Part shown: positions 2,468 to 20,668 of the stretch, piece after piece
Layout of the letters: each line of letters begins with the position of its first letter
How positions within the stretch are numbered: the first letter of the stretch is position 1
Source of the DNA: Nitrospinota bacterium
GTDB taxonomy: Bacteria; 2-12-FULL-45-22; JACOWJ01
Direction of reading: 5' to 3'
DNA length: 20,673 bases
Assembly: GCA_016176845.1 (NCBI GenBank)
Contig: JACOWJ010000012.1
Coordinates: 1-20,673 of the forward strand
The notes under the pieces: model-generated
The model's database searches: none
What the model was told of the DNA's origin: nothing
Seen by the model: the letters and a program-made list of their open reading frames with translations, nothing else
Position numbers and translations under genes: made by a program

Positions 2468-2560
2468 CCTCCTCAGTTGAGGTATCTCTGGAAAGATCAA
2501 CTCTTTGACGAGGAGGAAAAGGGCCATGGGTAAGCTGGTGGGATGGCTGCTGGGAGCAGC

Positions 2561-2589
2561 CCCTGGATCGGGTCCAGGGCAGGCTCTGC
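2561..2589 (+). repeat. 24-nt palindromic element, copy A (in frame, with shared flanks)
   Basis: The core is CCCTGGATCGGGTCCAGGG, followed by CAGGCTCTGC. The stem CCCTGGA/TCCAGGG encloses a 5-base loop. The net 24-nt unit is 2562-2585 and reads PGSGPGQA in the transposase frame. It matches copies B and C except at two central bases. Confidence 0.85.
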
Positions 2590-3350
2590 TTTGGGTGTTG
2601 TGGCCAACCGGTTTTGTAGAAGGAGCCCCCCTGACACAGGGAGCTACCTTGGTTCAGCATGGGGTATCCCAGGGAGGCCATCCTGGCCCCCGGGGGCCAT
2701 CCCAATCTCCAGGAAGCTCGTGGGTTGAGGGCGCTAACCCTCAGGAGGTTCCCAAGCCCCGGCGCAACCCCCGTCCCAGCCCACGCCGGAAGAAGCCGTG
2801 GGCGGGAAGGGCTCCCCGCCGCAAGGCCCCCAAACCTCCGGTGACCGATCCCAAGGATGGAGAGAGCCTCTCCCAAACCATTACCAAGAAGGTGGGCTCG
2901 GCCCCCATCTTGAACCACTTTATTCAAAGGATGGCCGTGGTGTCCATCATCGATACCCTGGCGCCCTCCCACCCCAACCGAGAGATCAGCCACGGAGAGG
3001 CGGTGGCCGCTCTGATGGTTTATTTGCTCAACAACGGCCGGGCCCTGTACCGGGTGGAGGGGTGGGCGGAGGAGACCTCGATCCTGGGAGAGCTTTTCCC
3101 CGGCTACCGACCGGAGGATTGGACCGACGACCGGCTGGGCGATAACTCTGGATGCCCTCTACCAGAAGGGGCTGGAGCCGATCCAGGGATCGATCAGTAC
3201 CCATATCGTGGGCGAATTTGGCCTGCGGCTCGATGAGATCCACTACGACCCGACCAGTGTATCTCTGTGGGGCACCTACGATTCGGCCACGGGACAGCCG
3301 GCCGTGCTCATTACCTTGGGCTACAGCAAAGACCACCGGCCTGACCTCAA

Positions 3351-3379
3351 GCAGAGCCTGCCCTGGACTTGATCCAGGG
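3351..3379 (-). repeat. 24-nt palindromic element, copy B (inverted, creates stop)
   Basis: On the minus strand this is CCCTGGATCAAGTCCAGGG followed by CAGGCTCTGC. The net insertion is 3355-3378, splitting the conserved DHRPDLKQ from VVVGMAVTGDGK. Read on the plus strand it adds SLPWT, a TGA stop, then SR. Removing exactly 24 bases restores the family sequence in frame. Confidence 0.88.
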
Positions 3380-4064
3380 TGGTGGTGGGGATGGCCGTCA
3401 CCGGGGATGGGAAGGTCCCCCTGGTGTCGGGGACCCACGACGGCAACACCGGCGAATGCACCTTGCCCCTGTCCTATTGGGAGCGGCTGCGGCAGTTGGC
3501 CGGCAAGAGCTCCTTTTGCTTCATTGGCGATTGCAAGATCGCCACCCTGGAGACCTTGCAAGAGATCTGTGCCCAAGGGGGGCAGTTTCTGGCTCCGCTG
3601 GCCATGACGGTGGCCCGGCAGGAGGAGCTGATCGAGAAATTGAAGGGGGGAGGGCTTCGCTTTACGGCCGTAACCCCGGAAGGAGAGGGTCAAAAGCCCA
3701 TTTACCCGAGACGGACCGGCCGGCCGGGCACCCGCCGCAAGAGGCAGGCCCCGGATCTGCCGGAAGAAGAAGAAGAGGAAGGGGAGGTGGACCAAGAGCC
3801 TTCGGGGATGGCTGGGCTGAGGACGGAATATCCGTTGGGGGGCTACCAGGTCTGTGAAGAGTCCTGGATGATCAAAGACAAGGAAGGCCATTCCTACCCT
3901 TTGCGCAAGCTCATCGTTCGAAGCAGCCAGCTCGCTCACCAGCAGGCTGACACCCGGGAGCGTCACCTGCAAGAGGCCGAGGCCGATCTGCTTGCCCTGC
4001 GGGGAAAGCTCAACCGGCGGAAGCTCACCACCCGGGAAGCGATTTCTTCGGCCGTGGCCAAGAT

Positions 4065-4093
4065 CCCTGGATCGAGTCCAGGGCAGGCTCTGC
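4065..4093 (+). repeat. 24-nt palindromic element, copy C (in frame)
   Basis: CCCTGGATCGAGTCCAGGG followed by CAGGCTCTGC. The net insertion 4066-4089 adds PGSSPGQA between AVAKI and LREHKVEGWLEV of the transposase. Its removal gives the contiguous sequence expected for the family. Confidence 0.85.
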
Positions 4094-4766
4094 GGGAGCA
4101 TAAGGTGGAAGGATGGCTGGAGGTGAGCATCGAAGAGCATGTCGAGAGCCGCCGCAGGAAACTGGGGCCGGGAAGGCCTGGGCCCAACAGCCAGTATGTG
4201 ACTGAAGAGAAGGCGATCTTTGAGCTGAAAGTCTGCCGAAAGGCCGAAGCCATCCAGGAGGAGGCCTGGCTCGATGGGTTCTTCCTGATGGTCAGCAACC
4301 GGGACCCCCAGGAGTGGTCGGCCTCTCGCCTGTTGGGGCTCTACAAACGCCAGTACAAAGTGGAGCAGGTTTTTCATGTCTTGAAGGGTCCTTTGGCTGT
4401 GGCTCCGATGCTGCTGGAGAAGCCCAACCCGATCTGCGCGATGATCTTCATCCTGACCCTGGCCCTCCAGCTCTATACCCTGATCCAGCGCCAGGCAGCC
4501 CAGGATCTCTTGAGGCGGGACCGTCCGCTGGCGGGGTTGATGCCTAACAAGATTCAGACCTGGCGGCCTCAAACTGCTACATTGCTGGCCGCCTTCGACA
4601 ACATCAATTAGGTGGAGATTATCCACGAGGGATTTCCCCCCTTGCGTTCTGTGACGAGTTTGAATCCCCTTCAGGCAGAGATCTTGGGGCTGCTGGGGGT
4701 CCCGGTAGAGGACTACTCGGTTGAGGCCCTCGCTCCTCGCTCCAAAATCGGATGAAACGTGAAGGA

Positions 4767-17238: not shown

Positions 17239-17353
17239 CTCTCGGCAGCGACCTACTCTCCCACGCCGTTACCAACGCAGTACCATCGGCGCTGAGGGGC
17301 TTAACTGCCGTATTCGGGATGGGAACGGGTGTTTCCCCCTCGCTATGGCCACC
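17239..17353 (-). rRNA. rrf: 5S ribosomal RNA
   Basis: The minus strand reads GGTGGCCATAGCGAGGGGGA, then AACACCCGTTCCCATCCCGA and GGGAGAGTAGGTCGCTGCC, the standard 5S conserved blocks, over about 115 bases. The ends are judged from pairing of the terminal stem and are accurate to a few bases. Confidence 0.95.
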
Positions 17354-17384
17354 GAAAACAACCAAGGCTAAAACAAACCTTTAA

Positions 17385-17418
17385 GACAATTGGAAAGCTG
17401 GTTGAATCAAAGACTATG

Positions 17419-17427
<9 letters not shown>
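17385..17427 (-). other. Pre-23S processing stem, 3' arm
   Basis: This stretch repeats, as GACAATTGGAA, GCTGGTTGAAT and GTGATCAAGC blocks on the plus strand, the complement of blocks flanking the 5' side of 23S at 20358-20438. The two can pair to form the long stem cut by RNase III in rRNA precursors. It spans the 23S 3' end. Confidence 0.7.
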
Positions 17428-20433
<3,006 letters not shown>

Positions 20434-20438
<5 letters not shown>

Positions 20439-20445
20439 AAAGAAC
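20434..20445 (-). promoter_or_regulatory. boxA-like antitermination signal before 23S
   Basis: The minus strand reads GTTCTTTGACAA, matching the E. coli rrn boxA GCTCTTTAACAA at 10 of 12 positions. It lies in the spacer between tRNA-Ala and 23S, where such signals are known. It partly overlaps the processing stem. Confidence 0.55.
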
Positions 20446-20485
20446 AAAAAAACCTTGGGAAAAATCTATAAAAGAGCTGACGTTC

Positions 20486-20561
20486 TGGTGGAGATGAGCG
20501 GAATCGAACCGCTGGCCTCCTGCTTGCAAAGCAGGCGCTCTCCCTTCTGAGCTACACCCCC
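20486..20561 (-). tRNA. tRNA-Ala (anticodon TGC)
   Basis: 76 bases including an encoded CCA. The 5' end is GGGGGTGTAGCTCAG, the anticodon loop is CTTTGCAAG with anticodon TGC, and the T-arm is GGTTCGATTCC. The acceptor stem shows the G3:U70 pair that identifies alanine tRNA. It is located in the 16S-23S spacer. Confidence 0.97.
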
Positions 20562-20591
20562 AACTCTCGGCTCTCACCTCCCCAGCCCCCC

Positions 20592-20668
<77 letters not shown>

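Follow-up and report, generated by a model that had tools for sequence, protein, structure and literature searches.

RPEs are about 100–150 nt long and are not known outside Rickettsia. IS200/IS605 elements have a hairpin adjoining a short guide whose sequence complements the cleavage site, and they insert directionally 3' of a short motif with no duplication. Small dispersed repeats (SDRs) of Nostoc and its relatives were reportedly described by Elhai et al. in 2008. In citing papers, SDRs are 21–27 nt long, form a hairpin with compensatory changes, are without a known enzyme, and occur nested or inside other repeats (PMC3116915, PMC2884548, PMC4390886); SDR5 is described there as inserting exactly at the junction of nucleotides 3 and 4 in HIP1 (PMC4390886). 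The CGTC REP superfamily has an unpaired CGTC (or TGTC/CCTC) tag at one end, a stem of 8–9 bp starting with AT pairs, a loop of 4–5 nt, and a CCA tail. It includes intragenic copies as well as Rickettsia RPE-4 and RPE-6, and is without a dedicated transposase (PMC3733652). GTAG-tagged REPs and REPINs are mobilised by RAYT (Y1) transposases (PMC3116915, PMC3733652).

The window, that is, the whole 20,673-nt stretch of Nitrospinota DNA analysed here, contained an IS1634-type transposase gene (DUF4277 + DDE_Tnp_1; 2505..4611, plus strand) that was host to three copies of a 24-nt element. Copy 1 (2562..2585, minus strand by the element strand AGCCTGCCCTGGACCCGATCCAGG) lay at the target GCAG^G and read PGSGPGQA in the plus-strand frame. 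Copy 2 (3355..3378, plus strand by the element strand AGCCTGCCCTGGACTTGATCCAGG) lay at AAGCAG^GTGGTG. Copy 3 (4066..4089, minus strand by the element strand AGCCTGCCCTGGACTCGATCCAGG) lay at GCAG^GATC and read PGSSPGQA in the plus-strand frame. The block common to the three copies was 28 nt (CCCTGGATCNNGTCCAGGGCAGGCTCTG), with sole differences at two central bases, and consisted of the 24-nt insert together with target bases shared by happenstance. With up to three mismatches allowed, the core matched 8 times in the window, compared with 0.20 expected from shuffles. The initial annotation had given exactly these positions and the two variable bases, and had rightly noted that the inverted copy, copy 2, reads through TGA. 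Since copy 2 adds this TGA to the transposase frame and a frameshift is present near 3146, the gene was identified as a pseudogene.

Alignment of copy 2 with homologous transposases showed exactly eight extra residues (DHRPDLKQ--------VV/LL), which the uninterrupted IS1634-type homologues lacked. At copy 3, homologous length was regained on taking out eight residues, and the alignment gaps were looser there. The proposal that excision of 24 bases rejoins the transposase sequence held exactly for copy 2, and in length for copy 3. Neither observation that the initial annotation would have taken as a refutation was made: related IS1634-type transposases did not share the eight residues, and the genome did have further copies. 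N-terminal conservation is poor where copy 1 sits, and the empty site of this copy is therefore taken from the pattern at other sites. No relatives of the transposase protein were matched in the genome contigs with the poorly chosen patterns used, and a plasmid search with the IS DNA as query gave no match. Elsewhere in the window, 17240–20668 of the minus strand carried 5S rRNA, 23S rRNA, and two tRNAs, and the ORFs listed there were spurious.

The unit was 24 nt, AGCCTG-CCCYGGA-CNNGA-TCCRGG, with an unpaired tag, a 7-bp stem, and a 5-nt loop. The order in element orientation was target (C)AG, A-GCCTG, the 7-nt arm, the loop CNNGA, and the complementary arm, with the target G closing the stem as the last base of the second arm. 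The DNA strand of the element by itself folded to this hairpin (−5.3 kcal/mol, z −2.7). In a scan whose pattern left both arms open at the variable stem position, every match (29/29) was complementary; with more stem positions freed, 32 of 33 matches paired. The reversed-pattern control gave 0 matches in the former scan and one match in all in the latter. A second subfamily, GCCTG-CACTGGA-GCTTCA-TCCAGT, differed in its stem and had a loop of 6 nt, and it also added 24 nt, at CCAG|GGCG in a tandem array of phage contig L060. Viral matches of the type GCCTG-CCCCGGA-N6-TCCGGGG (L176, L187, and others) were mostly without AG flanks; they were not accepted as the same element and were treated as a class apart or as chance matches. 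These loop-6 hairpins were apparently commoner than chance and possibly form another hairpin family. In two contigs their flanks were CCGGGCCAC...GTGGCCCGG.

Sites with and without the insert were compared. In Rhodanobacter glmU, 5 of 30 aligned orthologues had the insert and the other 25 were without exactly 24 nt, at GA|YCTGC. The GlmU insert read PGSSPGQA and corresponded to an exact 8-residue gap against the solved structure 7k47; the same peptide in gltB of genome G095 was an exact 8-residue gap against 7mfm. In the 72-nt tandem array of L060, AGCCTGCCCTGGACTCGATCCAGG was carried at CTCAG|GTGCGG by two of six units and the other four were empty; the frame of the array was open as a D12-type methyltransferase-related protein. 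The IS481 transposase of Sinorhizobium meliloti had the insert, S. fredii GR64 had a variant of it, and the Rhizobium and Ensifer homologues were without it. In REP dimers of Rhodanobacter G401, made up of GCATCGCGCACAG|GGTGCGCTCCTAC REPs, a filled member was paired with an empty one, the site being GCGCACAG|GGTGCGC. Viral contig L157 had one filled and one empty GGGAGAGGGTCAG|GGTGAGGG repeat. An 8-codon insert was likely in topB of G241, where alignment with solved structures gave no clean placement. These filled and empty pairs established, at the level of sequence comparison, that a fixed 24-nt hairpin inserts precisely, directionally, and recurrently, and that it is mobile. The view that the copies are insertions rather than ancestral was borne out by copy 2 and by the DNA-level empty sites elsewhere, and the predicted in-frame entry into genes was seen with PGSSPGQA in other genes.

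Other features of these contigs were observed. In L060, an HNH homing-endonuclease-like frame was read from the sequence at ~3700–4320, just past the element-bearing methyltransferase gene, and arrays of five-base GACNN units (GACTCGACTCGACGCGACTGGAC...) at 196–384 and 926–1011 resembled a hypervariable coding or structural region. L119 appeared ParB-like on reading, and Pfam gave no match.

The element resembled SDRs, as far as these are described in the citing papers, in size, 29/29 compensatory stem pairing, exact insertion into a fixed short target (CAG^G), and nested copies. By those descriptions, cyanobacterial SDRs are its nearest precedent, and CGTC REPs are the other closely similar kind. 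Unlike the SDRs, it had another target and probably another sequence, occurred beyond cyanobacteria, and had in-frame copies in conserved genes (glmU, gltB). The likeness to RPEs suggested in the initial annotation held as an analogy, namely an in-frame palindromic insert in protein genes (the 8-residue inserts of GlmU and GltB). However, RPEs are longer than 24 nt, the element was found outside Rickettsia, and the REP and RPE classes tested have another tag; the SDRs are closer.

Insertion into (C)AG^G took place after the AG and before the final G, in a single orientation. No target duplication was detectable, with a boundary ambiguity of 1 nt. AG preceded the insert at 11 of 14 independent genome sites (p = 6e-12) and at 12 of 27 viral sites (p = 9e-9), against a background of 5.7%. 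These statistics were obtained from scans without selection on the flank; a scan of 84,980 genomes was kept out of them because its pattern required AGA before GCCTG. The CCTG of the tag, at the hairpin foot, was the exact reverse complement of CAGG, which suggests that the tag acts as a guide by pairing with the target in a hairpin intermediate. Guide pairing predicts above all that tag and target covary. Such covariation was not seen; the few copies with a variant tag (GCTTG) were still preceded by CAG. No target preference for hairpin loops was found (13/49 vs. 26%), and many copies nonetheless lay within other palindromic repeats.

The overall explanation that we consider probable is a non-autonomous mobile hairpin, 5'-AGCCTG-CCCYGGA-CNNGA-TCCRGG-3', with guide-selected insertion at (C)AG^G and an enzyme acting in trans. 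The element would move as a folded single strand, either DNA or RNA copied to DNA. Its unpaired CCTG would recognise CAGG by base pairing, much as an IS200/IS605-type guide pairs with its cleavage site, and a putative enzyme in trans would do the joining. Copies would be tolerable in genes, even glmU, since 24 nt make up exactly eight codons and encode, in the preferred frame, a flexible linker, PGSSPGQA. Some copies may then multiply as passengers of longer repeats (REPs) where they landed. The three copies in the window transposase belong to one stem subfamily; they may have accumulated by hops over a short range, or may predate the entry of the transposase into this genome.

The element shares with IS200/IS605 a hairpin, a short tag complementary to the target, and directional, duplication-free insertion, but it has no tnpA and no second end, totals 24 nt, and showed no Y1 association in cis or trans. 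It is like GTAG REPs and REPINs in being a tagged hairpin, sometimes in inverted pairs, whereas its tag is GCCTG and the Y1 association of those repeats was not found. The Y1 transposase (PF01797) was absent from the 68% complete genome of the window, and carriers were not enriched in it (6/8 vs. 221/386 genomes overall). In 45 Rhodanobacter genomes, Y1 was not correlated with element copy number (Spearman −0.09). G421 and G197 had several element copies without a Y1 gene. A Y1 (RAYT-like) transposase was rejected as the mover at two scales, carrier enrichment and Rhodanobacter copy number; a diverged or lost enzyme is possible. The lack of a DNA transposase association also fits an RNA intermediate, in which the hairpin would be transcribed in longer RNAs and then reverse-transcribed or reverse-spliced into AG^G, a route reportedly proposed earlier for cyanobacterial SDRs. 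The exact 24-nt unit and the copies in transcribed genes and other hairpin repeats agree with this route, but insertions were found on either strand of genes (two vs. one in the window transposase), and we regard it as unlikely.

That the mobile hairpin belongs to the CGTC REP superfamily with an altered tag seems doubtful. The architecture is the same, with an unpaired tag on a short hairpin, a 5-nt loop (CNNGA), intragenic copies (glmU, gltB), and no dedicated transposase (PMC3733652). However, the tag was GCCTG in the window copies and their relatives, the larger set having been searched with the tag in the pattern, and the 7-bp stem CCCYGGA was without terminal AT pairs and without a CCA tail. 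In addition, the element was inserted inside CGTC-like repeats in G095. In Rhodanobacter G401 it was inserted in the loop of a REP that is putatively GTAG-type, going by the GTAG end of its sequence and by the Pseudomonas REP. Inverted REP pairs of G401 (L296, L297, L298) had the 24-mer in one or both loops. This suggests that the composite of inverted REP and 24-mer is itself being copied. At ~2990–3050 of L070, one element copy was nested in another element.

The genome of the window (1.53 Mb, 68% complete), searched by pattern only, had few copies, and three of them were in the window. The further copies, a possibility that the initial annotation had left to be checked, were in contigs C13 (two stem variants 200 nt apart, CCCTGAA/TTCAGGG and CCCCGGG/CCCGGGG), C5 (one copy, stem CCCCGGA/TCCGGGG), and C9 (the core with a diverged tail). 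By hand calculation, three copies within 1.55 kb are expected about 6e-5 times if six tagged copies are placed at random, so the cluster in the window is not random. Beside the C9 core copy (L001, ~2100–2210) there were other palindromic repeats, one of the TCGCTTCGCTCGGAATGACA type and one forming a GTAGGGGCGACGCATGCGTCGCCCCTAC hairpin. The one other genome of the candidate phylum available for comparison had three copies. The scan of 84,980 species genomes with AGAGCCTGCCCTGGANNNNATCCAGGG gave matches in Lysobacter, Rhodanobacter, a Methylococcus MAG, an Acidiferrobacteraceae MAG, and others. In the broad sample, AGCCTGCCCNGGACNNGATCCNGGG was found in 8 of 386 genomes, with 0 for the reversed control. 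The unit was present in Gammaproteobacteria and Alphaproteobacteria, and also in phage and prophage contigs. Five phage contigs (L173, L179, L192, L194, L205) shared a conserved position of the unit, CTCGCC|AGCC...GGG|GATCTCGA; this probably reflects an ancient insertion that became fixed in a phage gene, or else a convergent coding sequence.

The same composite flank recurred in HyVt-429, G019, and G401, as it would if true insertions were few and most copies had spread with host repeats (REPs, IS, phage arrays) as passengers or by gene conversion. Yet 51 independent flank pairs remained once similar flanks were collapsed, including those of unique genes (glmU, gltB, topB) and unrelated phages. 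As a full explanation, passenger spread is refuted by these independent flanks and we hold it to be very improbable; it accounts for some of the copies. Chance or convergent coding sequence, to which some loop-6 viral matches in unrelated coding contexts (left out of the counts) might point, is hardly credible given the reversed-pattern controls of 0 and one match in all, and is refuted by the exact empty sites in glmU and the phage array.

The mobile hairpin, if the explanation holds, would be among the smallest mobile DNA elements known. A case for mobile elements of this size has been made in cyanobacteria, and a demonstration elsewhere was not found in the literature searched. That literature also contained nothing on the element sequence or the PGSSPGQA peptide; a description beyond it is possible. 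More tentatively, 24-nt mobile hairpins that guide themselves may form a class spanning phyla and phages, in which the tag pairs with CAGG, a putative enzyme or reverse transcription carries out insertion, and an eight-residue linker is added to conserved proteins. Site-by-site comparison in culturable Rhodanobacter, with the insert in the housekeeping gene glmU, makes the mover of such elements directly testable. By adding a standard eight-residue linker to proteins, the element would amount to a natural insertion-scanning experiment.
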